From: Microbacterium sp. SORGH_AS_0428
GTDB lineage: Bacteria; Actinomycetota; Actinomycetes; Actinomycetales; Microbacteriaceae
Length of the DNA: 64,000 bases
Assembly (NCBI RefSeq): GCF_031453615.1
Contig: NZ_JAVIZT010000001.1
Span: forward strand, 2,604,001 to 2,668,000
Direction: 5' to 3'
Shown here: positions 19,228 to 56,853 of the stretch, in pieces
Layout of the letters: each line of letters begins with the position of its first letter
How positions within the stretch are numbered: the stretch's first letter is position 1
The notes under the pieces: generated by a model
Database searches by the model: none
Told to the model about the DNA's origin: nothing
The model's input: only the letters and a program-made list of their open reading frames with translations
Made by a program: the position numbers and the translations under genes

Positions 19228-19300
<73 letters not shown>

Positions 19301-19345
19301 CGCGCCAGCGCATGCTGGCACGACGTAAGCGATTCAGGTGGGTGC

Positions 19346-19665: not shown

Positions 19666-20754
19666 GTGTCTGAGAAATACACCGACGACGCCGATTGGGC
19701 GACCGCCGCCGAGCAGTCCAGTGAGGACGACGAGGCGCAGGAGGGCAACACCCTCGCCGCCGAGGAGCGCTCCGTCGAGGCCGCCGAGCACGTCGCGCTG
19801 CACATCGAGGGCGACGACGAAGACGAGGACTCGGACACCGGCTACGACGCGGATGCCGACGTCGAAGACCCCGAGGCCGACGCGATCGTGAACGACGCCC
19901 TGGAGATCGACGAAGCAGCCGAAGCCGAAGCGGCAGCCGAGGTGCTGACCGAATCGCTCGCCGAAGAAGAAGCAGAGCGCGCAGCCGAGGAGGCCGACGA
20001 AGTGACGCCCTACGACGGACCCGACATCAACGGCGAGCCGGACGCTCCCGTGCTCGACCCCGAGTTCGTGGCCGAGATCGATGACGCGGCCGCCGCCGTG
20101 GACGAGGTCGAGGAAGAGGTCGACGCGGACGCCGACCCCTACGAGGCGTTCCGTCAGGAGCTGCGCTCGCTCGAGGGCAAGTGGTACGTCATCCACTCGT
20201 ACGCCGGCTTCGAGCGCAAGGTGAAGGCCAACATCGAGCAGCGCAAGTCGACGCTCGAGGTCGAGGACGACATCTACCAGGTCGAGGTGCCGATGGAAGA
20301 CGTCGTCGAGATCAAGAACGGCCAGCGCAAGATGGTCACCCGCGTGCGCATCCCGGGCTACGTGCTCGTGCGCATGGAGCTCAACGAGGACACCTGGTCG
20401 GTCGTTCGCCACACGCCCGGCGTCACCGGGTTCGTCGGCAACGCCCACAACCCGACGCCGCTGCGGTTCGAAGAGGCGTTCAACATGCTGAAGAGCCTCG
20501 TCGAGATCAAGGACGTCGCCCCGGCGAAGTCCGGTGGCGGCAGCTCCGCTCCGGCGGCTGCCCGTGTCATCGCGGCAGAGGTCGACTACGAGATCGGCGA
20601 GACGATCACCATCAAGGAGGGCTCGTTCGCGGGTCTTCCCGGATCGATCAGCGAGATCAAGCCCGAGAGCGGCAAGCTCACGGTTCTCGTCTCGCTCTTC
20701 GAGCGCGAGACGCCGGTCGAGCTGTCGTTCGACCAGGTCTCCAAGATGGTCTGA
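19666..20754 (+). CDS. nusG: Transcription termination/antitermination factor NusG
   Basis: A 362-residue NusG from GTG 19666. The first ~160 residues are an unusually long, very acidic Glu/Asp/Ala-rich extension. The NGN domain follows ([20 protein letters not shown], then [20 protein letters not shown] and GVTGFVGN). The C-terminal KOW domain includes [20 protein letters not shown]. It binds RNA polymerase and couples it to ribosomes or Rho. Acidic extensions are usual in actinobacterial NusG, though this one is at the long end. A hairpin terminator follows within 16 bases. Confidence 0.96.
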
Positions 20755-20769
20755 CCCACAGGTCTCCTC

Positions 20770-20804
20770 GAACGCCCCGCCCGGCTCAGCCAGGCGGGGC
20801 GTTC
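20770..20804 (+). terminator. Terminator after nusG
   Basis: A 12-bp perfect stem, GAACGCCCCGCC at 20770-20781 pairing with 20793-20804, followed by GTCGTTCG. It separates secE-nusG from the cohesin gene. Confidence 0.8.
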
Positions 20805-20821
20805 GTCGTTCGACCATGGCG

Positions 20822-20859
20822 CATGCCGGCATGGCGCCCCTTGGGATGAACCGATCGGT
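20822..20859. promoter_or_regulatory. Two short palindromes upstream of the cohesin gene
   Basis: Within the 240-base gap 20755-20994, two perfect palindromes occur: CATGCCGGCATG at 20822-20833 and ACCGATCGGT at 20850-20859. Such dyads often mark regulator sites, but I cannot name a regulator and no clear promoter boxes are visible. The rest of the gap holds the nusG terminator and the AGGAAGG ribosome site of the next gene at about 20976. Confidence 0.35.
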
Positions 20860-20994
20860 ACATCTTTTACCTGGCGGAAACACCCGCGCGCCCGAGCGGG
20901 AAATCCGCGCCTGTGACGCTGCAGGAGCACCAGACGTCCTCCGCGACAGCGCACCCGAGCGCGTCGCGGGCCCTCAGGAAGGATCCGCTCCCGC

Positions 20995-21714
20995 ATGCCC
21001 AGATTCATCCCGCGCCGCCTTGCGGCGGCCACAGCCGCTGCGGCGGCGCTGCTCGGTGCGACGCTGGTCGTCGCGCCCGCCGCCCACGCCGCCCCCGCCG
21101 TGACGGACGTCACGATCACCGCCACCGGCGCCGCCGAGGTCGGAGACACGATCACCGTCACGATCGCCGCAGCGAACGTCGAGGATCTCTATGCCTACGA
21201 CCTCGCGCTCGGCTACGACTCCGAGCTGGTCGCGTTCGACGAGGGCGGTGCCACCTTCCCGGGCGGCGGATTCAGCGACGCGACGGCGGACGCCGACCGC
21301 GGTCTCGCCTACCTGACGCACACCCGGCTCGGTACCTCGCCCGGGCTCGTCGGGGCGCAGCCCCTCGTCACCTTGACCTTCACGGCTCTCGCCGCAGGCG
21401 ACGCGGTGATCGAGCTCGTGTCGGCCGACCTCGTCGGTGCGGCGCGCGACACCGCCTCGCTCGACGTCTCGGCGATCGAACCCGCCACCTCCGCCATCAC
21501 CGCGGTCGTTGCCCCGCCGTCGCCGTCGCCGTCGCCGAGCGCGCCGTCGCCGAGCACCTCGACGCCTGCGGCCGTGCCGGCCGCGGCTTCGAGCGGACCG
21601 CTCGCCGCCACCGGCGTCGATGCCGCGCCGTGGCTCGTCGTCGGTGCGGCCGCTCTCGCCGTCGTCGCCTTCGGCGTCGTGCTGCTCGTGCGCCGCCGGG
21701 CGGTGACCCGATGA
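20995..21714 (+). CDS. Cohesin-domain protein with LAATG sorting signal
   Basis: A 239-residue surface protein. Residues 1-33 are a signal peptide (cleavage after AHA likely). Residues about 36-163 match a cohesin fold: VGDTITVTIAAANVEDLYAY, then a region of beta strands ending LVTLTFTALAAGDAVIEL. A Pro/Ser linker (174-200) leads to LAATG (203-207), a hydrophobic helix and RRRAVTR, a sortase anchor of the class-E LAxTG type. Cohesins bind dockerin modules. The next gene encodes an enzyme with a dockerin, so this protein probably displays that enzyme on the cell surface. The cohesin call rests on pattern, not alignment. Confidence 0.82.
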   Translation: MPRFIPRRLAAATAAAAALLGATLVVAPAAHAAPAVTDVTITATGAAEVGDTITVTIAAANVEDLYAYDLALGYDSELVAFDEGGATFPGGGFSDATADADRGLAYLTHTRLGTSPGLVGAQPLVTLTFTALAAGDAVIELVSADLVGAARDTASLDVSAIEPATSAITAVVAPPSPSPSPSAPSPSTSTPAAVPAAASSGPLAATGVDAAPWLVVGAAALAVVAFGVVLLVRRRAVTR

Positions 21715-21767
21715 GTCCTCGCGCCGCCGTCGTTCCCGCAACCTTCGCGTCCTCCAGGAGAGCGTCC

Positions 21768-23621
21768 ATGTCCACCCGCACCACACGCACGATCGCCGCC
21801 GCGGCGGTACTGGGCACCGTCACCGCCGTCATGGCCGTGGCGCCCGCCTTCGCCGAGCCGGAGCCCACCGCATCCGCCGCGATGCTCGCTCCGTACTACA
21901 CCGAGCTCGATCTCACCGGTGACCGTCAGGTCGACGCCGACGACCTCGCCGTCGCTGCGCGCCATCTCGGGATCACGGCCGCTGACGCCGGGTGGTCGGA
22001 GATCGCCGTGATCGATACCGACGCGGACGGTGCGATCACGATCGCGGATCTCGCCGCCCTGTCGCAGCGCATGATCTACGACGACGGCCCGTTCGAGCTG
22101 GTCGAGGCCTCCACCGTCGACATGCAGGCGGCGATGAACGCCGGCGTGATCACCTCGGTGGAGCTCACCCAGGCCTACCTGAACCGCATCGAGGCCTACG
22201 ACGACAAGGTGGTCACGTACCCGGTCGACCCCGCTGCCCCCTCCGGGGCGACGGCGACGACCGCCCGCCCCCTCAACTCGATCATCACCACGAGCAGCAC
22301 CGCCCTCGCTGCGGCCGCCGCCGCCGACGCGGAGCGCGCCGCGCACGGCATGACCAGCATGCTGCTGGGCGTGCCCGTCGCGGTCAAGGACAACTACAAC
22401 ACGAAGGACATGGTCACGACCGGCGGCTGCGGTTGCTGGAACGACAACCAGACCGCCGGCGACGCCCACATGGTCGAAGGGCTCCGTGCCGATGGGGCGG
22501 TCATCATCGCCAAGGCGAGCCTCGACGAGTTCGCCTACGGGTTCAGCTCGCAGTTCTCCGCCTTCCAGCCGGCCGGCTCCTCGTTGTACGTCGCGAGCCC
22601 GTACGACACGACCAAGACGGCGGGTGGCTCGTCGGGCGGGACGGGAGCCGCCATCGCGGCGAACCTCGCCGGCATCGGTTTCGGCACCGACACGGGCGGC
22701 TCGATCCGCGTGCCTTCCTCCTACAACCAGCTCGTCGGCATCCGGCCCACGGTGGGCCTCGCGAGCCGCGACGGCATCATTCCCCTCGCCCTCTCGCAGG
22801 ACACCGGCGGTCCGATCGCGCGCAGCGTGACGGATGCGGCGCTGGCCCTCGATGCCGTCGTCGGCGTGGATGAGAACGACGCCATCACCCAGCGCCAGGT
22901 CGGCAAGGTTCCGGAGTCGTACGCGTCCTTCCTCGACTCGGGCGCTCTCAAGGGCGCGCGGATCGGCGTGATCGGCTCGCTCAGCGGCACGGGGGAGACC
23001 GCGGCGCGCTTCGCGGCGGCTCGCGACCTGCTGACCGCGCAGGGAGCGACCGTCGTCACGATCACCCCGCCCGCCGAGTTCAGCGCCGTCACGGGCGAGA
23101 ACTCGGGCTCGACCAACGAGTTCAAGCACGACCTCGACGAGTACATCGCGTCGTACCTGAACCCGAACGTCACCGCCCGCAGTCTGCAGGCGATCATCGA
23201 CAGCGGGAACTTCGTGCCCGGCTACCGCAGCATCTACGTGTCCCGCAACGCCGTCACCCCCGAGACGTACGAGGCATGGGCCGGCGCCGAGGGATCGCAC
23301 ACGCGTCAGATCGCCGCGGGCAAGGCGCTCGTCACGCAGATGATGGACGATGCCGACCTCGACGCGATCATCTACCCGAGCACGAGCGCCTACGGCACGT
23401 TCAGCAGCAGCTACATGCGGCTGAGCCCCAACACCGGGCTCCCCGCGGTGACCGTGCCGATGAGCGCATCGGGCACGGCTGAAGGCGGGCAGACGGTCGG
23501 GACGAACATCGAGTTCCTCGGACGTGACTTCTCCGAGGGCACGCTGATCGGTCTGGCGTACAGCTACGAGCAGGTCACGCACGCTCGCACATCGCCGCGC
23601 ATCTTCGGCGCGCTGCAGTAG
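21768..23621 (+). CDS. Secreted amidase with N-terminal dockerin-like module
   Basis: A 617-residue secreted enzyme. Residues 1-29 are a signal peptide ending APAFA. Two calcium-binding repeats follow: DLTGDRQVDADD (Asp48, Thr50, Asp52, Asp56, Asp59) and DTDADGAITIAD (Asp83, Asp85, Asp87, Asp94). These are the 1-3-5-(9)-12 pattern of type I dockerin. The rest is amidase-signature family: PVAVKDNY (Lys207), TAGGSSGGTGA (cis-Ser near 288) and FGTDTGGSIRVPSS (Ser312) form the Ser-cisSer-Lys triad. ATG 21768 has AGGAGAG upstream; ATG 21711 overlapping the cohesin stop is an alternative. A dockerin at the N terminus is unusual; substrate unknown. Confidence 0.87.
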   Translation: MSTRTTRTIAAAAVLGTVTAVMAVAPAFAEPEPTASAAMLAPYYTELDLTGDRQVDADDLAVAARHLGITAADAGWSEIAVIDTDADGAITIADLAALSQRMIYDDGPFELVEASTVDMQAAMNAGVITSVELTQAYLNRIEAYDDKVVTYPVDPAAPSGATATTARPLNSIITTSSTALAAAAAADAERAAHGMTSMLLGVPVAVKDNYNTKDMVTTGGCGCWNDNQTAGDAHMVEGLRADGAVIIAKASLDEFAYGFSSQFSAFQPAGSSLYVASPYDTTKTAGGSSGGTGAAIAANLAGIGFGTDTGGSIRVPSSYNQLVGIRPTVGLASRDGIIPLALSQDTGGPIARSVTDAALALDAVVGVDENDAITQRQVGKVPESYASFLDSGALKGARIGVIGSLSGTGETAARFAAARDLLTAQGATVVTITPPAEFSAVTGENSGSTNEFKHDLDEYIASYLNPNVTARSLQAIIDSGNFVPGYRSIYVSRNAVTPETYEAWAGAEGSHTRQIAAGKALVTQMMDDADLDAIIYPSTSAYGTFSSSYMRLSPNTGLPAVTVPMSASGTAEGGQTVGTNIEFLGRDFSEGTLIGLAYSYEQVTHARTSPRIFGALQ

Positions 23622-23633
23622 TCCGTCCTGCGC

Positions 23634-23666
23634 GACCGCCCCGCCGGAACCTCCGGCGGGGCGGTC
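23634..23666 (+). terminator. Terminator after the dockerin-amidase gene
   Basis: A perfect 15-bp stem, GACCGCCCCGCCGGA at 23634-23648 and its complement at 23652-23666, with loop ACC, followed by GTCTTCCC. Confidence 0.85.
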
Positions 23667-23710
23667 GTCTTCCCGCGCCCGTCCGTGATCCGGCGCGCCC
23701 GGCGATGCGG

Positions 23711-23716
23711 TAGAGT
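23711..23716 (+). promoter_or_regulatory. Possible -10 box of the rplK-rplA promoter
   Basis: TAGAGT fits the actinobacterial -10 pattern TAnnnT and lies in the 154-base stretch between the amidase terminator and rplK. No convincing -35 box is seen. If correct it gives a leader of about 100 bases. The leader ends in a purine-rich GAAAGGAAAAAAGA ribosome site directly before rplK. Confidence 0.35.
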
Positions 23717-23820
23717 GTTGTGGTTTGCGTGCCGCTCCGGCGCGCTGCGACAACCGCTTCCCTCGACGGGATGCGGGAGAGCCGATGCATCCGGCATCCG
23801 CTCGATGAAAGGAAAAAAGA

Positions 23821-24252
23821 ATGGCACCGAAGAAGAAGGTGACCGGCCTGATCAAGCTTCAGATCAACGCCGGTGCAGCCAACCCGGCGCCGCCGATCGG
23901 CCCCGCGCTCGGTCAGCATGGCGTCAACATCATGGAGTTCTGCAAGGCGTACAACGCCGCGACCGAGTCGCAGCGCGGCAACGTCATCCCCGTGGAGATC
24001 ACCGTCTACGAGGACCGCAGCTTCACCTTCATCCTGAAGACCCCGCCCGCCGCGGAGCTCATCAAGAAGGCCGCCGGCGTCGCCAAGGGGTCGAAGACCC
24101 CCCACACCGTCAAGGTCGCGAAGCTCACCAAGGACCAGGTGCGCCAGATCGCCGAGACGAAGATGCCCGACCTGAACGCGAACGACATCGAGGCTGCCTC
24201 GCTGATCATCGCCGGCACCGCCCGCTCCATGGGCATCACGGTCGAGGACTGA
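23821..24252 (+). CDS. rplK: 50S ribosomal protein L11
   Basis: A 143-residue ribosomal protein of the GTPase-associated centre, binding 23S rRNA near the L10-L12 stalk. It begins [20 protein letters not shown] with the [18 protein letters not shown] signature. The C-terminal rRNA-binding domain includes [20 protein letters not shown] and SMGI. It is followed 14 bases later by rplA, the conserved pair. Confidence 0.98.
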
Positions 24253-41703: not shown

Positions 41704-43191
41704 ATGCACCGATCCTCCTCACGCGCCCCTCGGCGCTGGGCGTTCGGATTCGCCGCGGCGCTCGCCGCCGCGGTGCTGTCCGTACCGCTCGCCGCGCACG
41801 CGGTCGCGGAGCCCGAAGCCGCAGCGGCGGATGCGGCGGCGACGCTGCCCGCACTGCAGGTCGAAGGAAACCGCATCGTCGACGCGAACGGCCAGGATGT
41901 CGCTCTCCGCGGCGTCTCCGTTCTCGCGCCGGAGCAGAACGACCTGTGTGAGTACTGCAACGCGCGCCCCACATCCGAGCTCATCGATGTGGCGGTGGAC
42001 TGGAACTCACGGGTCGTCCGGCTCCCGGTCACCGAGATCGGCGCGACGACGGATCTCGCCGCCTACGACGCCCAGTACATCGCCCCCTACGTGGCTCAGG
42101 CGGTGGAGCGCGGTGTCTACCTCATCATCGACCTGCACCTCGTGCGCAACTACGGGGATGCAGCCGGCGCCGTGCCGCGTTCCACGGTCGAGCGGTTCTG
42201 GGACTACATCGCGCCCCTCTACGGCTCGAATCCCAACGTGGTGTTCGAGGTGTTCAACGAGCCGATCTCTCCGGCGAGCTGGACGACCTGGAAGGACTAC
42301 ATCCAGCCGGTCGTGGACGGCATCCGCGACGTCGCACCGAACACCCTCTTGCTCATGGGCTCTCCGCAGTGGAGCACGATGCTCAACGGTGCGCTGACCG
42401 ACCCCATCGTCGGTGGCAACATCGCCTACGTCTACCACCTCTACCCCAACCAGGGGTCACCGACGACAGCCCTGCTGGACCAGAAGTTCGGCACCGCTGC
42501 CCAGACGCTGCCCGTCGTGGTCAGCGAGTTCGGCTGGAACCCGCCGGGTGAGTTCTCGGACTCCATCACCGCGGGCACCACGACGAACTGGGGCGTGCCG
42601 TTTCGCTCATACATGGACGCGCGTCCCTGGATCGGATGGCAGGCCTGGATCCTCGACAACTTCTGGAAGCCGCAGATGTTCGACTACGACTGGAACATCC
42701 TCGCGGGCGAGCATCAGGGGCAGTTCGTGAAGGACTGGCTGGCAGGCGCCCCCAACACGTCCCCGTGCGCGGATCATGATGCGATCGGTGCGAGCGTGCA
42801 GGTCTCCTCGCAGTACAGTGCGTCCACGCCGGGCACGAAGCTGGTCGACGGCGACTGCTCGGACGCGGGCCGCTGGCTCTCCGCGGTGGGGGACACGGCA
42901 CCCACGGCCACACTCACCTTCGCCCAGCCGCTCGATGTGGCTTCGGTGGGGCTGTACAGCGGATACGGCAGCAGCGTCGGCACGGTGCTGGTGGACTTCT
43001 CGGTCGAGGTCCACACGAGCGCCGGATGGCAGACGGCGGCCACGGTCACCGGCAACACGCAGGGTGCGCGGGAGATCGCCGTCGGCGTCGCCGGCGTCGA
43101 CCAGCTGAGGCTCGTGGTGACCAACCCCTCCGCATCGACGACGGAAGCGAAGATCGCCCGCGTGCACGAGATCGCCGTGCACGCCGGCTGA
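41704..43191 (+). CDS. Secreted glycoside hydrolase family 5 with C-terminal carbohydrate-binding domain
   Basis: A 495-residue exported glycanase. Residues 1 to about 38 are a signal peptide (FGFAAALAAAVLSVPLAAHA). The catalytic (beta/alpha)8 domain (about 50-345) has VFEVFNEPIS with acid/base Glu186 and VVVSEFGW with nucleophile Glu275, typical of GH5 endoglucanases and relatives. The last 140 residues (ASVQVSSQYSAST to VARVHEIAVHAG) resemble an F5/8 type C or CBM32-like beta sandwich. It would cut polysaccharide outside the cell and supply oligomers to the adjacent importer. It is followed by a very strong terminator. Confidence 0.9.
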   Translation: MHRSSSRAPRRWAFGFAAALAAAVLSVPLAAHAVAEPEAAAADAAATLPALQVEGNRIVDANGQDVALRGVSVLAPEQNDLCEYCNARPTSELIDVAVDWNSRVVRLPVTEIGATTDLAAYDAQYIAPYVAQAVERGVYLIIDLHLVRNYGDAAGAVPRSTVERFWDYIAPLYGSNPNVVFEVFNEPISPASWTTWKDYIQPVVDGIRDVAPNTLLLMGSPQWSTMLNGALTDPIVGGNIAYVYHLYPNQGSPTTALLDQKFGTAAQTLPVVVSEFGWNPPGEFSDSITAGTTTNWGVPFRSYMDARPWIGWQAWILDNFWKPQMFDYDWNILAGEHQGQFVKDWLAGAPNTSPCADHDAIGASVQVSSQYSASTPGTKLVDGDCSDAGRWLSAVGDTAPTATLTFAQPLDVASVGLYSGYGSSVGTVLVDFSVEVHTSAGWQTAATVTGNTQGAREIAVGVAGVDQLRLVVTNPSASTTEAKIARVHEIAVHAG

Positions 43192-46352: not shown

Positions 46353-46413
46353 CTAGGGTCGGCTCGTTGCAGCTTTCTTGCGCTCCTCGCGCCCGTGTCG
46401 ACCCAGGGGGACC

Positions 46414-49400
46414 ATGTCCGACTCCACTCTCCGACCGCATCGTCGTGGCCGGATCCTCACCGCAGCCCTCATCGTCGGAGCCGTTGTCGCGGCCTCGGCG
46501 GTCGCGACCGTTCCCGCCGTCGCTGCGGACCCGACGGTCGGTGCTCGCACGGCGGGCGACCCGCTCTTCCCTCACGTCGGCAACGGCGGTTACGACGTCA
46601 CCCACTACGACCTGGACCTGACGTATCGCGCGAACGACGACGTGAGCGCGGTCGCCACGATCGCCGCCACCGCCCCGGCGCCGCTGTCGGGCTTCTCGCT
46701 CGACTTCGAGGGCATGAGCGTGGACAGCGTGACGGTCAACGGCGTGCCCGCTCAGTTCTCTCGCGAGCAGGATGTGGACGCCACGCTCTTCAAGCTCGAC
46801 ATCACCCCCGCGACGGCGGTCAGTGGTCCGTTCACGGTCGCGGTGGCCTACTCGGGTGCGCCCGTCCGGCACATCGACGCGGACGGTTCGTCGGAGGGGT
46901 GGGTCAAGACATCGGACGGCGTGACGGCGCTGGGGCAGCCGATCGGCGCCATGACCTGGTTCCCGCAGAACAACGCGCCGGCGGACAAGGCCACCTACGA
47001 CATCAGCGTGACCGCACCCACCCTCGTGGGCGGCAACCCGCTGAGCGTCGCGAGCAACGGCGAGCTGATCGGCAAGACCGTCGACGCACAGGCGGGGACC
47101 ACCACCTGGGACTGGCAGCAGCGCAACCCCATGGCGACCGAGCTCTCCGTCCTCTCGATCGGGCGCTTCAACGTCCTGGAGAGCGACATCACCCTCGCGA
47201 GCGGCCGGACGTTGCACGAGTGGAGCTTCGTCGATCCGACCATCAGCGTGAACGTCCAGAACACGATCAACACGCGTCGCGGTGAGATCACGCAGATCAT
47301 CGACTGGCTCGAGACGAAGCTCGGCCCCTATCCGGGCAACAGTGTCGGCCTCATCGTCGACCGTGTCGGCGTCGGGTACGCCCTGGAGACCCAGGACCGG
47401 CCGTTCTTCGACGGCAGTGTCTCCGCCAACACGCTCATCCACGAGCTCGTCCACCAGTGGCTGGGCAACGAGGTCGCCCCGGCCGACTGGTCTCACATCT
47501 GGCTCAACGAGGGCGCGGCGGAGTTCTTCACCACCTACTACCGCTACGGCGTCGGTCTCAGCCAGACCACCCCGGAGAACGACTCGTTCGGCAGCTGGAG
47601 CTCCGCGTCGGCCTCCCGGTGGCTGACGCCCACCGTCGGTTTCACCGACCCGGCCGAACTGTACGACTGGCAGGTCTACAACCGCGGAAAGTACACCCTC
47701 GGCGCGCTCATGACCGCCATCGGCCGCGACGCCTTCGATGCGACCTACGCCGCCTGGACGAAGGCGCACGCCGGCGGTTCCGCCGACACCGACGACTTCG
47801 TCGCGCTCGCCGAGCAGGTCTCGGGCCGCGACCTGGGTGCGTTCTTCCAGGACTGGCTGTTCGACACGGACAAGCCCGCGTGGCCCGCGATGTGGACCGC
47901 CGCCGTCACCACCGATGTGCCCACGGGTGAGACCGTCCTCCCGGGCGACACAGCGACTCTGACGCTCACGGTCGAGAACACCGGCCGAGTGGACCTGGCC
48001 GGCGCGACCGTCGTTGTCGACGCGACGCAGCTGTTGACCCAGGCGTCGTTGCCGATCCTCCCGAAGGATGTCGCACGTCAGGACTCGACGCTGACATGGT
48101 CGATCCCCACGACGGCGCCCGGCGCAACCGCATCCGTCGAGATCGCGGTCGACGTGGCCGCGGATGCCCCCGGCGGCGCGATCACGGTCCCGATCACCGC
48201 TCCGCAGCTCGGCTCGACCCTGACCGCGGCCGAAGCCGTCTTCCAGATCGCCGGACCCGTCGCGCTGAACCTGCTCAACATCAACGACTTCCACGGACGC
48301 ATCGACCAGAACACGGTGAAGTTCGCCGGGACGATCGAGCAGTTGCGCGCGGAGTACGGCGAGGACAACACCCTGTTCCTCTCCGACGGCGACAACATCG
48401 GTGCCTCCGTGTTCGCCTCGTCGTACTTCAAGGACGAGCCGACCCTGGAGGTCTTGAACGCACTCGGCCTGAAGGCGTCCGCAGTCGGCAACCATGAGTT
48501 CGACAAGGGGATCGCCGATCTCACCGGCCGTGTCGCCGAGAGCGCCGACTTCACCTACCTCGGCGCGAACGTCTACGACGCGAAGACGGGAGAGGTGCTT
48601 CTCCCGGAGTACGCGACGTTCACCGTCGACGGGCTGACGGTCGCCGTCATCGGCGCCGTCACGGAGGAGACGCCGAGCCTGGTGTCGCCCGACGGCATCA
48701 CGGGAGTCTCCTTCGGCGACCCGGTCGCGGCCGTCAACCGTGTGGCCGCCCAGCTGACTGACGGCGACCCGGCCAATGGCGAGGCGGACGTCATCATCGC
48801 GGAATACCACGAGGGTGCATCGGCGGGCACGCCCGACAAGTCGACCCTCGAGCAGGAGGTCGACCACGGCGGGGCGTTCGCCTCGATCGTCGAGGACACC
48901 TCCGCGGCGGTCGACGCCATCTTCACCGGCCACACCCACAAGCTCTACGCGTGGGAGGCGCCGATCCCGGGCACGGATCGCACCCGTCCCGTCGTTCAGA
49001 CCGGAAACTACGGTGAGAACATCGGCCAGGTCGTGCTGCAGCTCGACCCGGTGACCGCAACGGTGGAGTCGTACACGGTCAACAACGTCGCCCGCACGAC
49101 CGCGGCGGATGCTGACCTGGTCGCCGCCTATCCCCGCGTCGCCGAGGTGAAGCGGATCGTGGACGCCACGCTGGCGGATGCGGCTGCCGTCGGCAACCAG
49201 CCGGTGGGATCGGTGACCGCCGACATCACGACCGCCTTCAGCGGCGGCGCGTACGTCGACGGCGTGTATCGCGGGGGACTGCGAGACGACCGCGCAGCCC
49301 AGTCGACGCTGGGCAACCTCGTCGCGGACTCGATCCGCGACGCGCTGGCCGACCCGGCCCGCGGCGGAGCCGAGATCGGTGTGGTCAACCCGGGCGGGTT

Positions 49401-50559
49401 GCGAGCCGACCTGAGCTACGCGCCCGATGGCGTCATCACGTACGCCGAGGCGAACGCCGTTCTGCCCTTCGTCAACAACCTCTGGACGACCACTCTCACG
49501 GGAGCCCAGTTCACGAAGGTGCTCGAGGAGCAGTGGCAGCTCGATGACAAGGGTCAGGTCCCGTCACGGCCGTACTTGCAGCTCGGACTCTCCGAGAACG
49601 TGTTCTACACCTACGACGCCGCGGCGGCGCAGGGCTCGCACATCACGGGCGTCTGGATCGACGGACAGCCGATCGACCCGAACCGCGAGTACCGCGTGGG
49701 CTCGTTCAACTTCCTCTTGACCGGCGGCGACAACTTCCGCACCTTCAGGGAGGGGGCTCAGACGCGCGACTCGGGTCTCGTCGACCGCGACGCCTGGATC
49801 GACTACCTGGCGGCGCATCCCGCACTGACGCCGGACTTCTCCTCCCGCAGCGCACAGGTGTCCGGTGTCCCGGCATCCGTCGTCGCGGGCGAGGCCGTCA
49901 CCTTCCAGGTGTCGCGGTTCGACCTCACATCGCTCGGCAGCCCCGCCAACGCGGTGCTGGAGCCGGCGATCGGTCAGGCTGCCTACACGCCCGTGGCCGT
50001 CACGAACGGTGTGGCGAACGTGTCGTTGACGACGCCCAGCGATGTCGCCGGCCCGGCGGTCATCTCCCTCGCGGCTCCGGCCTCGGGCACCGTCATCCGC
50101 GTTCCGATCGACGTGCGCCCGGCCGTGCCGGGAACGGGCGGAGGAGCGGTCGAGACGCCCGCGCCCGAGTCGGCGCTCACGCCCGCCACGCAGAACGCGG
50201 TCCAGATCCAGGGCGGGACGACGCTCCAGCCCGGACAGACGATCACGATCCACGTCGGTGAGGAGTACGCCGGTGACTGGGTGAGCGTCTGGTTGCGCTC
50301 CGACCCGCTGCTGCTGGGCTGGTACCGCGTGGACGAGCTCGGCAACATCACGCTCACCCTGCCCGCGGGCGTCTCGGGGGCGCATCGACTGGTCGTGCAG
50401 GACGCCCAGGGCAACGTGATCGGGTGGCAGCAGGTGCAGATCGGCGCGCTGCCCAGCACAGGCCAGGACGGCGGATCGATTCTGGGGCTGTCGCTCGTGG
50501 CCCTGCTGCTGGTGGGTGCGGGAGTCTCGGCGCGCACCATCCGCCGCAGGCGAGCCTGA
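46414..50559 (+). CDS. Cell-wall-anchored M1 aminopeptidase-like / 5'-nucleotidase fusion
   Basis: A 1381-residue exported protein. After a signal peptide (about 1-36), an M1-type metallopeptidase region carries HELVHQW (His343, Glu344, His347) and WLNEGAAEFF with zinc ligand Glu366; the usual GAMEN motif is replaced by ALETQ. A beta-rich spacer (about 500-600) leads to a 5'-nucleotidase: LNLLNINDFHGRID (Asp625, His627), LFLSDGDNIGAS, AVGNHEFDKG, FTGHTHKLY, then the C-terminal nucleotidase domain (RAAQSTLGNLVADSIRD). LPSTG (1346-1350), a hydrophobic stretch and RRRRA form a sortase anchor. It should trim peptides and release nucleosides and phosphate at the surface. The fusion is unusual. Confidence 0.9.
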   Translation: MSDSTLRPHRRGRILTAALIVGAVVAASAVATVPAVAADPTVGARTAGDPLFPHVGNGGYDVTHYDLDLTYRANDDVSAVATIAATAPAPLSGFSLDFEGMSVDSVTVNGVPAQFSREQDVDATLFKLDITPATAVSGPFTVAVAYSGAPVRHIDADGSSEGWVKTSDGVTALGQPIGAMTWFPQNNAPADKATYDISVTAPTLVGGNPLSVASNGELIGKTVDAQAGTTTWDWQQRNPMATELSVLSIGRFNVLESDITLASGRTLHEWSFVDPTISVNVQNTINTRRGEITQIIDWLETKLGPYPGNSVGLIVDRVGVGYALETQDRPFFDGSVSANTLIHELVHQWLGNEVAPADWSHIWLNEGAAEFFTTYYRYGVGLSQTTPENDSFGSWSSASASRWLTPTVGFTDPAELYDWQVYNRGKYTLGALMTAIGRDAFDATYAAWTKAHAGGSADTDDFVALAEQVSGRDLGAFFQDWLFDTDKPAWPAMWTAAVTTDVPTGETVLPGDTATLTLTVENTGRVDLAGATVVVDATQLLTQASLPILPKDVARQDSTLTWSIPTTAPGATASVEIAVDVAADAPGGAITVPITAPQLGSTLTAAEAVFQIAGPVALNLLNINDFHGRIDQNTVKFAGTIEQLRAEYGEDNTLFLSDGDNIGASVFASSYFKDEPTLEVLNALGLKASAVGNHEFDKGIADLTGRVAESADFTYLGANVYDAKTGEVLLPEYATFTVDGLTVAVIGAVTEETPSLVSPDGITGVSFGDPVAAVNRVAAQLTDGDPANGEADVIIAEYHEGASAGTPDKSTLEQEVDHGGAFASIVEDTSAAVDAIFTGHTHKLYAWEAPIPGTDRTRPVVQTGNYGENIGQVVLQLDPVTATVESYTVNNVARTTAADADLVAAYPRVAEVKRIVDATLADAAAVGNQPVGSVTADITTAFSGGAYVDGVYRGGLRDDRAAQSTLGNLVADSIRDALADPARGGAEIGVVNPGGLRADLSYAPDGVITYAEANAVLPFVNNLWTTTLTGAQFTKVLEEQWQLDDKGQVPSRPYLQLGLSENVFYTYDAAAAQGSHITGVWIDGQPIDPNREYRVGSFNFLLTGGDNFRTFREGAQTRDSGLVDRDAWIDYLAAHPALTPDFSSRSAQVSGVPASVVAGEAVTFQVSRFDLTSLGSPANAVLEPAIGQAAYTPVAVTNGVANVSLTTPSDVAGPAVISLAAPASGTVIRVPIDVRPAVPGTGGGAVETPAPESALTPATQNAVQIQGGTTLQPGQTITIHVGEEYAGDWVSVWLRSDPLLLGWYRVDELGNITLTLPAGVSGAHRLVVQDAQGNVIGWQQVQIGALPSTGQDGGSILGLSLVALLLVGAGVSARTIRRRRA

Positions 50560-51969: not shown

Positions 51970-54900
51970 ATGTCCCCCTCCCAGCCGAGGCGCCCCCTCG
52001 CGGCGCTCGCCTTCGGGATCGGAACCGCGGTCGTCGCAGGCATGTTCGTGCCCGCCGTCGCCGTCGCCGCCGAACCCGCCGACGTCATCATCAACGAGGT
52101 GTACCTCAAGGGCGGAAGCGCCAACGCTCCGTTCAACAAGAAGTTCGTCGAGCTGTACAACGCCGGCGAGAGCGCGCAGAGCCTTGACGGCTGGTCGCTC
52201 CAGTACCGTTCCGCCGATGGAACAGGCGGGCCGTCGGTCACCGAGCCGCTGAGCGGCGTCATCGAGCCGGACGATTACTACCTGATCGCGTGGAACGGCA
52301 ACGGCGCCGTGGGTGCCGCGCTCCCCGTCACCCCGGACCTGTCGTTCGACAAGGGCTTCAACGCCTCCGGCACGACGGGCACGATCTACCTCGCAGACAC
52401 CACGCAGGCGCTGACGCTTCCCACCGGATCCGTCGTCGAGCAGGAGCACGTCGTCGATCTCCTCGGCTACGGAGCATCCAAGACGTTCGAGACGAGCGTG
52501 GTCCCGGTGACCGGCGCGAACAACGTCCCGAACTCCCTCGCCCGTGCGAACTTCGCCGATACGGACGACAACGCGGCCGACTTCAGCCACCCCGCGCAGA
52601 TCACGCCGCAGGCATCCGCGACCTCGGGCACCGATCCCGATCCGGGTACCGACCCCGATCCCGGCACGGACCCGGATCCCGGCACCGACCCCGGCACTCC
52701 TGCGATCAGGACGATCGCCGAGATCCAGGGCACCGGCGACGCGACGCCGCTGCTCGGCCAGACGGTCACCACACGCGGCATCGTCACCGGCGCCTACGCG
52801 GAGGGCGGCTTCAACGGCTTCACCATCCAGACGCCCGGCACGGGCGGCGCGGTGGACGCTTCGCACGCCGCGTCCGACGCCGTCTTCGTCTACGCAGGAA
52901 GCGGGCAGGCGGGAGCAGCCCTCGCCGCGAAGGCCCCGATGGGCGCCTACGTCGAGGTGACCGGCGTGGCCGGTGAGTACTCGAGCGTCGCGAACGACTC
53001 CCAGACCCTCACCCAGCTCAACGTCTCGGCCGGCTCGGTCACCACGATCGACGAGCAGGTCGCGGCGGTGACGCCGGTGCCCCTCGCCTGGCCGATCGCG
53101 CCCGCGGACCGCGAGAAGTTCGAGAGCATGCTCGTCGCCCCCCAGGGCCGCTTCACGGTGAGCAACACGTACACGACGAACCAGTACGCCGAGATCGGGC
53201 TCGCCTCCGGCGAGAAGCCGCTGATCACGCCGACCGACGTCGCGCGCGTGGGCACCCAGGAGTACACGGATGCCGTCGCCGACAACGCCGCGCGCGGTGT
53301 CGTGCTCGACGACGGTGCGTCGATCAACTTCCTCGGCGGTTCGACCAACAAGGCGATCCCGCTGCCGTATCTCACCGACGTCGACGTCACGGTGGGCGCA
53401 GAGGTCTCGTTCGCCCAGCCGGTGATCCTGGACTATCGCAACGGCGCCTGGAAGGTGCAGCCGACCACCCAGCTCAAGGCCGGCGACCCTCTGCCCGTCA
53501 CCATCGGGTCGGCGCGCGCCGCATCCGCACCCGATGTCGTCGGCGGCGACATCTCGATCGCCAGCTTCAACGTCCTGAACTACTTCACGACGACCGCCGC
53601 GGAGGTCGGTTGCACCTCGGTCTACACCGACCGTGACGGCACCCCCATCACGGCGAACCAGTGCCCCGACAACGGTCCGCGCGGCGCCGCGACCGACGTG
53701 AGTCTGAAGCGTCAGCAGGACAAGATCGTCGACGCGATCAACGCGCTCGGCACCGAGGTCGTCTCGCTCGAGGAGATCGAGAACTCGGCGGCGTTCGGCA
53801 AGAACCGCGACACCGCGCTGTCGACCCTCGTCGACGCACTGAACGCAGATCTCGGCGCGGACGAGTGGGCCTACGTGCCCTCGCCCAGCCAGGTGCCCGC
53901 CGGTGAGGACGTCATCCGCACCGCGTTCATCTACAAGGCGGATGCGGTATCGCCGGTCGGCGACTCCGTCATCGATCTCGATGCCGCCTTCGTCAACGCG
54001 CGACGCCCGCTCGCTCAGGCGTTCGCGCCCAAGGGCGAGACGGATGCCGCCTTCCTGGCGATCGTGAACCACTTCAAGTCGAAGGGGGACAACCGCGACA
54101 ACCCGGCCACGGGCGACAACGCCAACGGACCGCAGGGCGCCTACAACGGCGACCGCGTGCGCCAGGCGCAGGCGCTCGTGGACTTCGCCGACGAGCGGAA
54201 GGCTGCCGCCGGGACCGACCGCGTGTTCCTGCTCGGAGACTTCAACTCGTACACGCAGGAAGATCCCATGCAGGTCTTCTACGCGGCCGGGTACACCGAC
54301 CTCGGATCGCGCACGGGCAAGCACACGTACTCCTTCGACGGCGCAAGCGGGTCGCTCGACCACGTGCTCGCCTCGCCCGCCGCGGCCAAGACGGTCACCG
54401 GCGTCGATGTCTGGAACATCAACGCGGGGGAGTCGATCGCGCTCGAGTACAGCCGCTACAACTACAACGCGACGAACTTCTACGAGGTCTCGCCCTACCG
54501 CTCCAGCGACCACGACCCGGTCGTGGTGGGCGTCGCGTGGCAGCCGACAGTGCCGATCAACCTGCTGAACATCAACGACTTCCACGGTCGTATCGATGCC
54601 AATACGGTCAAGTTCGCCGGCACGGTGGAGCAGCTGCGCGCCGAGTACGGCGACGAGAACACGCTGTTCCTCTCGAGCGGCGACAACATCGGCGCCTCGC
54701 TGTTCGCCTCGTCCTTCGAGGACGACCAGCCCACGATCGACGTGCTGAACGCCCTCGGGCTGAAGGCGGCGGCGGTCGGCAACCACGAGTTCGACAAGGG
54801 CTTCGCGGATCTGAAGGATCGGGTGCAGCCCGCCGCCGACTTCACCTACCTGGGCGCGAACGTGTACATGAAGGGAACGACGACGCCGGCTCTTCCCGAG

Positions 54901-56853
54901 TACGCGACCTTCGAGGTCGACGGGCTCACGGTCGCTGTCATCGGAGCGGTGACCGAGGAGACGCCGACGCTGGTGACGCCCGCAGGCATCGCTGACATCG
55001 AGTTCGGAGACCCGGTGGATGCGGTCAACCGCGTCGCCGCCAAGCTCGAGGCCGAAGGCGACGTCGATGTGATCGTGGCCGAGTACCACGAGGGTGCGGC
55101 TGCGGGTGATGCCGAGAAGGCGAACCTCGCCGACGAGATCGCGGACGGCAAGGCGTTCGCCGACATCGTGCAGAACACCTCCGTATCCGTCGACGCGATC
55201 TTCACGGGTCACACGCACAAGAAGTACGCGTGGGATGCCCCGATCCCCGGCGAGTCCGGCGCAACGCGACCTGTCGTCCAGACAGGTAGCTACGGCGAGA
55301 ACATCGGCCACGTCGTGCTCAACGTCGACCCGCAGACGGGAGACGTCCTCTCGTACGAGAAGGAGAACGTCGCTCGCACGACGACGGACGACGCTGCGCT
55401 CGTCGCAGCGTACCCGCGCGTCGCCGAGGTCAAGGAGATCGTGGACGGCGCGCTCGCTCGGGCGAAGGTCGTCGGCGACCAGCCGATCGGATCCGTCTCG
55501 GCGGACATCACGACGGCCTTCGAGGGCGGGTCCTTCGTCGGTGGCGTCTATGCCGGCGGCACGCGGGACAACCGCGCGGCGCAGTCCACGCTCGGCAACC
55601 TCGTCGCCGACTCGCTCGTCGCGACGCTGTCCGATCCGCTTCGTGGTGGCGCCGAGATCGGTGTCGTGAACCCCGGTGGCCTTCGTGCCGAGCTGCTGCG
55701 CGGCGACGACGGCGTGATCACCTTCGCCGAGGCGAACGCGGTGCTGCCCTTCGTGAACAACCTCTGGACGACGACCCTCACGGGTGAGCAGTTCACGCAG
55801 GTGCTCGAGGAGCAGTGGCAGACGAACGCGGACGGGTCCATCCCGTCTCGTCCGTACCTGGCTCTCGGCCTGTCGAAGAACGTGACCTACACGTACGACG
55901 CGGACGCGGCTCAGGGATCCCACATCACGGGGGTCTGGATCGACGGCGAGCCGATCGATCCGAAGGGCTCGTACCGCATCGGCTCGTTCAACTTCCTCCT
56001 GCAGGGCGGCGACAACTTCCGCACCTTCGCGGAGGGGACCGACACGCGCGATTCGGGCCTCATCGACCGGGATGCCTGGATCTCGTACCTGACGGCGAAC
56101 AGCCCGGTCTCGCCGAGCTTCGCCACGCGCAGTGCCGAGGTGACGGGCCTCCCGGCATCCGTCGCGCCCGGTGCGCAGGTCTCGTTCCAGGTGGGCGGGC
56201 TGAACCTCACCTCGCTCGGGAGCCCGGAGACGACCTCTCTGCTGGTGAGCATCGAGGGCAGCACGGCCGTCATCGATCCGGTCACCGTGACGGGCGGAGC
56301 GGCAACGGTCGCCTTCACGGTGCCCGCTGACGCTCCGGCGGACAGCACGATCGTCCTCCAGGCGCCGCAGACGGGCACGGAACTCCGCCTGCCGCTGAAG
56401 GTGAGCTCCGCCACCCCGCCGACCACGACGCCGCAGCCCGTGGACCCGAGCCAGCTCGTGCCCGCCCTGCAGGATCTCATCAAGGTCATCACGGGCGAGC
56501 TGCGCGCCGGAGCCACGATCACGATCCACGTCGGCACGCAGTACGCGGGCGACTGGGTGACGGTGTGGCTGCACTCGACGCCGCGTCAGCTCGGCGGCTG
56601 GCATCAGGTGGATGCAGCGGGCAATGTCACGGTCACCCTGCCCGCCGATCTCACGGGCGATCACCGGCTCGTGGTGCTCGATGCGAACGGTCAGGTCATC
56701 GGCTGGCAGGCGGTCTCCATCGCCCCCAGATCGGGGTCGCTGGCCGCCACCGGCGCGCAGACGCAGTGGATCGCGGGCGCACTGCTCGCCGCATCCCTGC
56801 TGCTCGCGCTCGGTATCGTCGGGCGGGCCGTGCCGGTGCGTCGACGCAGCTGA
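51970..56853 (+). CDS. Cell-wall-anchored ExeM/NucH-like nuclease / 5'-nucleotidase fusion
   Basis: A 1627-residue exported protein (signal peptide about 1-34, AGGAG before the ATG). Domains in order: a lamin-tail-like region (VIINEVYLKGGSANAPFNKK, about 37-150); a DPDPGT-repeat linker near 220-241; an OB-like region (TIAEIQGTGDATPLLGQTVT); an endonuclease/exonuclease/phosphatase domain about 528-850 (IASFNVLNYF, VVSLEEIENS, LLGDFNSY, SSDHDPVVVG); and a 5'-nucleotidase from about 862 (NINDFHGRID, SSGDNIGAS, GNHEFDKG, FTGHTHKKY). LAATG (1591-1595), a hydrophobic helix and RRRS end it. It would cut extracellular DNA and strip phosphate from the nucleotides. The nucleotidase half is paralogous to the gene at 46414. 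Confidence 0.92.
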   Translation: MSPSQPRRPLAALAFGIGTAVVAGMFVPAVAVAAEPADVIINEVYLKGGSANAPFNKKFVELYNAGESAQSLDGWSLQYRSADGTGGPSVTEPLSGVIEPDDYYLIAWNGNGAVGAALPVTPDLSFDKGFNASGTTGTIYLADTTQALTLPTGSVVEQEHVVDLLGYGASKTFETSVVPVTGANNVPNSLARANFADTDDNAADFSHPAQITPQASATSGTDPDPGTDPDPGTDPDPGTDPGTPAIRTIAEIQGTGDATPLLGQTVTTRGIVTGAYAEGGFNGFTIQTPGTGGAVDASHAASDAVFVYAGSGQAGAALAAKAPMGAYVEVTGVAGEYSSVANDSQTLTQLNVSAGSVTTIDEQVAAVTPVPLAWPIAPADREKFESMLVAPQGRFTVSNTYTTNQYAEIGLASGEKPLITPTDVARVGTQEYTDAVADNAARGVVLDDGASINFLGGSTNKAIPLPYLTDVDVTVGAEVSFAQPVILDYRNGAWKVQPTTQLKAGDPLPVTIGSARAASAPDVVGGDISIASFNVLNYFTTTAAEVGCTSVYTDRDGTPITANQCPDNGPRGAATDVSLKRQQDKIVDAINALGTEVVSLEEIENSAAFGKNRDTALSTLVDALNADLGADEWAYVPSPSQVPAGEDVIRTAFIYKADAVSPVGDSVIDLDAAFVNARRPLAQAFAPKGETDAAFLAIVNHFKSKGDNRDNPATGDNANGPQGAYNGDRVRQAQALVDFADERKAAAGTDRVFLLGDFNSYTQEDPMQVFYAAGYTDLGSRTGKHTYSFDGASGSLDHVLASPAAAKTVTGVDVWNINAGESIALEYSRYNYNATNFYEVSPYRSSDHDPVVVGVAWQPTVPINLLNINDFHGRIDANTVKFAGTVEQLRAEYGDENTLFLSSGDNIGASLFASSFEDDQPTIDVLNALGLKAAAVGNHEFDKGFADLKDRVQPAADFTYLGANVYMKGTTTPALPEYATFEVDGLTVAVIGAVTEETPTLVTPAGIADIEFGDPVDAVNRVAAKLEAEGDVDVIVAEYHEGAAAGDAEKANLADEIADGKAFADIVQNTSVSVDAIFTGHTHKKYAWDAPIPGESGATRPVVQTGSYGENIGHVVLNVDPQTGDVLSYEKENVARTTTDDAALVAAYPRVAEVKEIVDGALARAKVVGDQPIGSVSADITTAFEGGSFVGGVYAGGTRDNRAAQSTLGNLVADSLVATLSDPLRGGAEIGVVNPGGLRAELLRGDDGVITFAEANAVLPFVNNLWTTTLTGEQFTQVLEEQWQTNADGSIPSRPYLALGLSKNVTYTYDADAAQGSHITGVWIDGEPIDPKGSYRIGSFNFLLQGGDNFRTFAEGTDTRDSGLIDRDAWISYLTANSPVSPSFATRSAEVTGLPASVAPGAQVSFQVGGLNLTSLGSPETTSLLVSIEGSTAVIDPVTVTGGAATVAFTVPADAPADSTIVLQAPQTGTELRLPLKVSSATPPTTTPQPVDPSQLVPALQDLIKVITGELRAGATITIHVGTQYAGDWVTVWLHSTPRQLGGWHQVDAAGNVTVTLPADLTGDHRLVVLDANGQVIGWQAVSIAPRSGSLAATGAQTQWIAGALLAASLLLALGIVGRAVPVRRRS

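Follow-up and report, generated by a model that had tools for sequence, protein, structure and literature searches.

A linked cohesin surface protein and dockerin-bearing amidase in Microbacterium sp. SORGH_AS_0428 and its relatives, a predicted two-gene enzyme tether

Results

We examined two adjoining plus-strand genes in a stretch of 64,000 nucleotides (the window) which covers positions 2604001-2668000 of the 3.30 Mb single-contig genome of Microbacterium sp. SORGH_AS_0428. According to the list of open reading frames (ORFs) and the sequence, a gene for a cohesin surface protein of 239 amino acids (aa) lies at 20995-21714 and is followed at 21711-23621 by a gene for a dockerin-bearing amidase. 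An earlier note on this DNA had described the two as a minimal two-part display system, consisting of a secreted single-cohesin protein with an LAATG anchor and a secreted amidase with a two-repeat dockerin and an intact Lys-Ser-Ser triad, and had called such a pair unusual in a high-GC actinobacterium. The description of the parts was borne out by profile searches, modelling and conservation. The pair is instead a recurrent cassette in the lineage (GTDB Actinomycetales), and its two genes adjoin each other beyond chance.

The cohesin protein starts with a putative signal peptide (about residues 1-33, 20995-21093), read by eye from a basic start, a hydrophobic core and AHA-A. Residues 39-152 (21109-21450) gave a significant match to the cohesin profile PF00963 in a protein-level search (37.1 bits, cut-off 24.1, E = 4.4e-9), and the gene scored 38.5 bits in a search of the genome. 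AlphaFold2 (AF2) modelled a cohesin fold here with a predicted local distance difference test (pLDDT) score of 96.9, and several homologues carry the source name "cohesin domain-containing protein". A linker rich in Pro, Ser and Ala (21505-21600) leads to the LAATG sorting motif (residues 203-207, 21601-21615), which was recognised from the sequence and from sub-threshold matches to NCBIfam sorting models, and then to a hydrophobic segment with a basic tail, RRRAVTR (21625-21711).

The dockerin-amidase, whose signal peptide was also read by eye, is 636 aa long from an ATG at 21711 and 617 aa long from an ATG at 21768. The residue numbers of the earlier note fit the shorter form and are kept here. 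A type I dockerin (PF00404) occupies residues 48-101 (21909-22070), with calcium loop 1 at D48, T50, D52, D56 and D59 (21909-21944) and calcium loop 2 at D83, D85, D87, T91 and D94 (22014-22049); all of the calcium positions that had been named are present. We counted conservation over 87 unique loci, which remained from 97 after the removal of one locus whose amidase ORF runs off its contig (L093) and nine which were duplicates in the last 300 residues. These comprise 79 loci with the order cohesin to amidase, five without a cohesin gene where the contig is cut, two in which the pair is one ORF and one in which the order is inverted (L101).

If exchanges among D, E, N, S and T are allowed, 85 of the 87 sequences retain positions 1, 3, 5 and 12 in each loop. 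In loop 1, D48 is D in 82 and E in 4 sequences, T50 is T in 85 and S in 1, D52 is D in 85 and N in 1 and D59 is D in 85 and E in 1, with one gap each. For loop 2 the counts were 85 D at D83 and 82 D with 3 N at D85 (two gaps each), and 82 D with 4 N at D87 and 85 D with 1 E at D94 (one gap each). Position 9 of loop 1, which is Asp56 here, is mostly Thr (T 75, D 7, A 2, S 1, N 1, one gap). Loop positions were lost outright only in L086, which is truncated by its contig, and in L061, a single decayed copy with a shortened dockerin and with the cohesin anchor in another frame. This degree of ligand conservation marks two repeats of calcium loop and helix, and AF2 modelling of a fused relative, described below, also showed the loop-helix pattern.

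The amidase-signature domain (residues 165-570, 22260-23477) matched PF01425 with an E value of 2.5e-78 and also aligned to the structure 1m21. Its triad is intact: Lys207 (22386-22388), Ser288-Ser289 of a GGSSGG motif (22629-22634) and Ser312 (22701-22703) are invariant in 87/87 sequences. Following the roles assigned in the amidase-signature family, we take Lys207 to be catalytic, the cis-serine to lie within Ser288-Ser289 and Ser312 to be the nucleophile. Equally invariant (87/87) are both cysteines of Cys221-x-Cys223 within GGCGCW (22428-22436), where the aligned 1m21 has no Cys; they are a possible disulfide or metal site. Judging by homology, the enzyme would act on an amide, perhaps that of a peptide amidated at its C-terminus, and no literature on the substrate of this amidase was found.

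The two genes overlap in the four nucleotides ATGA (21711-21714), in which the TGA stop of the cohesin gene (21712-21714) is joined with an in-frame ATG for the amidase. At 77 of the 79 loci of the order cohesin to amidase, the cohesin stop is likewise overlapped over 4 nt by an in-frame ATG, GTG or TTG, and for this reason we consider the start at 21711 at least as likely as that at 21768. The overlap also suggests that the cohesin and amidase genes are translationally coupled. The two exceptions were L117 and, with a cohesin ORF that ends early, L099. L099 comes from Demequina sediminis; the inverted locus, from Isoptericola sp. AK164, has a short cohesin ORF without an in-frame anchor. The short cohesin ORFs at these two loci may reflect sequencing error or decay.

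To follow the linkage of the two genes, 197 genomes of the same genus were searched with a cohesin profile (E ≤ 1e-8) and a dockerin-amidase profile (E ≤ 1e-14), thresholds at which weaker relatives would be missed. Cohesin loci numbered 36, spread over 34 genomes, and dockerin-amidase loci 38, spread over 36 genomes. Every one of the 36 cohesin loci adjoins a dockerin-amidase on the same strand, at a distance of 106-882 bases. According to the earlier note, the pairing would have been contradicted by homologues of either gene without the other; above the thresholds used, the genus and order surveys yielded only two dockerin-amidases without a partner, G125 and G194 of the 38 in the genus. Both are 5'-truncated amidase remnants which lack a signal peptide and an intact dockerin repeat 1, and because each can be explained by one deletion they are not independent evidence. 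Their interpretation as a joint loss of the cohesin and dockerin repeat 1 was rejected, since the DNA reveals the 5' truncation. With the plain Pfam models, 23 of the 197 genomes had a cohesin, with an amidase adjoining it in 23/23. The same models gave 26 dockerin loci in the genus, of which 23 belong to a cohesin/amidase pair and 3 to large proteins of other kinds. One dockerin match outside a pair lies at the C-terminus of a 1356 aa protein, subtilisin-like and secreted by our reading (L081, 2389-6459), in a genome without a cohesin match.

We also surveyed 297 genomes from 92 genera of the order. Here strong matches to the cohesin profile (E ≤ 2.5e-31) and to the dockerin-amidase profile (E ≤ 1.9e-45) numbered 17 each and coincided at all 17 loci, which lie in 16 genomes, a count which leaves out two weak cohesin matches (G437, E = 2e-4; G234, E = 5e-4). 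The gene order was inverted at 3 of the 17 loci, with adjacency kept. The cassette is therefore rare within the order (16/297 genomes). Weak matches to the dockerin-amidase profile (E ≤ 1e-3) occurred in 145 of the 297 genomes, most among those listed covering the amidase end only, and 10 of these loci, selected because their matches extended further into the dockerin part, had no calcium loops and no cohesin within 6-7 kb. Among at least 65 named loci, 60 had a cohesin next door, and the remaining 5 lie no more than 553 nt from the end of their contig. The named genera include Cellulosimicrobium, Cellulomonas, Curtobacterium, Herbiconiux, Leifsonia, Georgenia, Isoptericola, Demequina, Mycetocola and Agreia. 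It should be noted that the genus, order and named-locus samples overlap and that related genomes are not independent events. A survey of the phylum (296 genomes) gave strong matches in the window's own genome only, with one weak match (G676, E = 8e-6). Relatives were also found in records named outside the order, as Coraliomargarita (P0081), Neobacillus (P0117) and Sphaerisporangium (L140), which may be due to mislabelling, contamination or transfer.

The earlier note had spoken of a single pair, which did not hold, as a second, divergent pair lies at about 1312.7-1315.9 kb of the same genome. Its cohesin scored 20.0 bits against PF00963, which is under the cut-off, and matched the family profile with an E value of 6e-34; the protein has a membrane-like tail and no LAxTG. 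Its dockerin-amidase scored 28.4 bits against PF00404 and is the one further dockerin protein in the genome (E ≤ 1e-3). Both dockerins are on an amidase with its own neighbouring cohesin, and neither cohesin protein has more than one cohesin match. Profile searches of this genome found no multi-cohesin scaffoldin and no dockerin-bearing glycoside hydrolase of the kind that would indicate a cellulosome. The window encodes, at 41704-43188 on the plus strand, a putative secreted protein that has a domain of the GH5 cellulase family, an F5/8 type C match under the cut-off and no dockerin match. At L206 (4210-7104) and L207 (4028-6877) the pair occurs in a third, divergent form in which the gene order is inverted and the amidase is about as similar in score to one of the two amidases in the window's genome as to the other.

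A class E sortase is encoded at position 1919330 of the genome (215.5 bits, cut-off 160), and a second sortase at 727300 scored 53.9 bits on the class E model, under that cut-off. Class E sortases use LAXTG (PMC5148588). The LAATG motif, hydrophobic stretch and basic tail of the cohesin protein, together with this sortase, make it a predicted class E substrate that would be anchored to the wall. A cohesin is present at 82 of the unique loci. At 69 of these the cohesin ORF carries L[AP]xTG close to its C-terminus; the other 13 comprise 6 with LxATG, 3 of subfamily B, 2 running on into the amidase and 2 that end early.

In fourteen proteins a single chain comprises cohesin, linker, dockerin and amidase; these are L127 (which is the same as L068), P0091 and P0165-P0176. 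In a 100-tip amidase tree they form one clade (support 0.85), with the unfused pair L069 as its sister, and this is most simply explained by a single persisting fusion. The cohesin motif TRLG(T/S)SPG is found in 12 of the 14, the other 2 having TRVG. Calcium ligands were lost in 3/14 fused proteins (P0169-P0171, by eye) vs 1/85 unfused proteins (Fisher: P = 0.008), a difference which is suggestive only, as the three may be one lineage.

Around the pair, we take the upstream ORF at 19666-20754 to be nusG-like and the downstream ORF from 23821 to encode an L11-like ribosomal protein; a tRNA-Trp at 19228-19301 lies upstream of ORFs read as secE and nusG. No promoter or terminator signals were found in 20600-23900. 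A crude ORF scan of the fetched flanks of the 87 loci found no conserved flanking genes: each cluster of flank ORFs was common to at most 7 loci, with the exception of one 18-locus cluster. This was rejected as a conserved neighbour and taken for shadow ORFs, its example being antisense over an amidase ORF. Two large secreted-looking enzymes are also encoded on the plus strand of the window, one with peptidase M1, metallophosphoesterase and 5'-nucleotidase C domains (46411-50556) and one with lamin-tail, endonuclease/exonuclease/phosphatase, metallophosphoesterase and 5'-nucleotidase C domains (51970-56850); they flank two ORFs read as rplJ and rplL.

Discussion

In our judgement the two genes probably constitute a dedicated one-to-one enzyme tether on the cell wall, because of their domains, the cohesin fold, the conserved residues, the start-stop overlap, the linkage, the natural fusion and the class E sortase. 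The minimal two-part display system of the earlier note is likewise supported by the cohesin match and fold, the dockerin ligands, the sortase, the linkage and the fused clade. In such a system the dockerin-amidase would be translated from the start codon which overlaps the cohesin stop, and both proteins would be exported, the dockerin-amidase being secreted separately. Cohesin proteins of subfamily A would be attached to the wall, and those of subfamily B would be retained in the membrane. The two-repeat dockerin would then fold with calcium and bind the neighbouring cohesin, by which one amidase per cohesin would be displayed on the wall. We infer that the two proteins bind, are exported and become attached to the wall, as well as the dependence on calcium and the activity and substrate of the enzyme.

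Several results weigh against a wall tether. The NCBIfam sorting-signal models all scored under their cut-offs (21.8 vs 27 bits for the LAVTG model). The fused clade has no wall anchor, as its 13 P proteins lack LAxTG and all 14 end in the amidase; subfamily B (3/3 unique loci with a cohesin) has a membrane-like terminal segment without LAxTG; and in 6 cohesin ORFs LxATG replaces LAxTG. The wall anchor therefore varies. The search with the dockerin profile gave a divided answer, since PF00404 scored 22.0 bits on the whole protein, 0.9 under its cut-off of 22.9, but 26.6 bits on the same dockerin in the genome search, which is above it; scores of same-genus relatives reach 35.7 bits. An AF2 single-chain model of the cohesin-dockerin part of L127, made before the 12 further fused sequences were found, gave two confident domains joined by a low-confidence linker, with a predicted template modelling (pTM) score of 0.59. 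Because of this score and the loose linker, the model supports no interface. Finally, cohesin distances correlated with dockerin distances over 79 pairs when the amidase domain was controlled for (partial r = 0.33, 0/2000 permutations; 0.23 in 76 subfamily A pairs), but the partial correlation between cohesin and amidase-domain distances was stronger (0.46). The co-variation is therefore not dockerin-specific, and co-evolution was rejected as proof of cohesin-dockerin contact, as the cohesin follows the amidase domain at least as well.

Because the fused clade has no anchor, surface display alone cannot account for the pair in all lineages. That clade suggests that the cohesin is of importance where no anchor exists, and it keeps alive the explanation that the pair is an obligate two-subunit enzyme, the cohesin being chiefly a folding or regulatory partner and wall attachment being secondary and lineage-specific. 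We regard this as possible, if rather unlikely. The 14 fused proteins retain the cohesin, the amidase and the dockerin or its remains, the overlap in 77/79 loci fits equimolar subunits, and the closer tracking of the amidase domain by the cohesin would also be expected. However, a chaperone would have no need of the L[AP]xTG which is found on 69/82 unique cohesin ORFs, and in known systems cohesins bind dockerins and not catalytic domains. It is a somewhat doubtful proposal that the pair is a translationally coupled obligate heterodimer, in which the cohesin is a required amidase subunit as well as a wall anchor. The cohesin-dockerin contact would then have been retained, shifted from trans to cis by the fusion and, in one clade, released from the wall. 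If this were true, the cohesin-dockerin joint would be serving as a subunit interface and not as a scaffold plug.

It is very improbable that the genes are neighbours for the sake of expression only and that the cohesin fold binds a polysaccharide or another surface protein. Adhesins and pilins do share similar folds, but the two genes co-occur in the same 16/297 genomes of the order, stay adjacent under inverted order and are fused in cis, and the partner is specifically a dockerin-bearing amidase, the 10 dockerin-less relatives that were inspected having no cohesin within 6-7 kb. A small cellulosome-like hub, in which the cohesin also recruits other dockerin proteins as cohesins are generally understood to do, is very improbable given that both PF00404 matches in the genome are on amidases with their own adjoining cohesins and that there is one cohesin match per cohesin protein.

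Cohesin and dockerin modules outside cellulosomes are reportedly known already, going by the title of Peer et al. 2009. The closest PDB sequences to the cohesin profile were 2jh2 (E = 2e-7) and 2ozn (E = 2.7e-7), and cohesins of Clostridium perfringens, the best-studied close case outside cellulosomes, were among the top fold matches of the window's cohesin. The X82 cohesins of this species (NagJ, 2jh2/2ozn/2w1n; sialidase, 2vo8) resemble it in being non-cellulosomal and in occurring singly in each protein. The C. perfringens cohesin is located on a glycoside hydrolase and joins enzymes to each other (PMC12997984). In contrast, the cohesin protein of the window has no enzyme domain and has a wall-sorting tail, and its partner is an amidase. 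In Ruminococcus a cohesin protein among the cellulosome scaffoldins is fixed to the wall by sortase (PMC11557425). The predicted sortase anchoring of our cohesin protein is similar to this. Unlike in Ruminococcus, no multi-cohesin scaffoldin, second dockerin client or dockerin-bearing glycoside hydrolase was found in the window's genome, and the predicted anchoring is by LAxTG and a class E sortase. The best PDB match of the amidase was the peptide amidase 1m21/1m22 (E = 4e-59 over residues 108-611), with which it shares the triad positions and which we take to be Pam of Stenotrophomonas maltophilia. The match starts at residue 5 of that chain, with no dockerin before it, whereas the enzyme of the window adds a dockerin and the Cys-x-Cys. 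We found no published description of this cohesin/dockerin-amidase pair in the open-licence literature. While cohesins and dockerins outside cellulosomes and sortase-anchored cohesins are known, a pair which carries an amidase is new within the open-licence literature searched.

As a tether, the pair would extend cohesin-dockerin pairing in high-GC bacteria to a cassette of just two genes that is complete in itself, with one socket, one plug and a cargo other than a glycosidase, and it offers a natural high-GC surface-display pair. Its divergent versions, two in the window's own genome and a third type in L206/L207, would lend themselves to studies of specificity, and the natural fusion from trans to cis would be a test of what the cohesin-dockerin joint is for.
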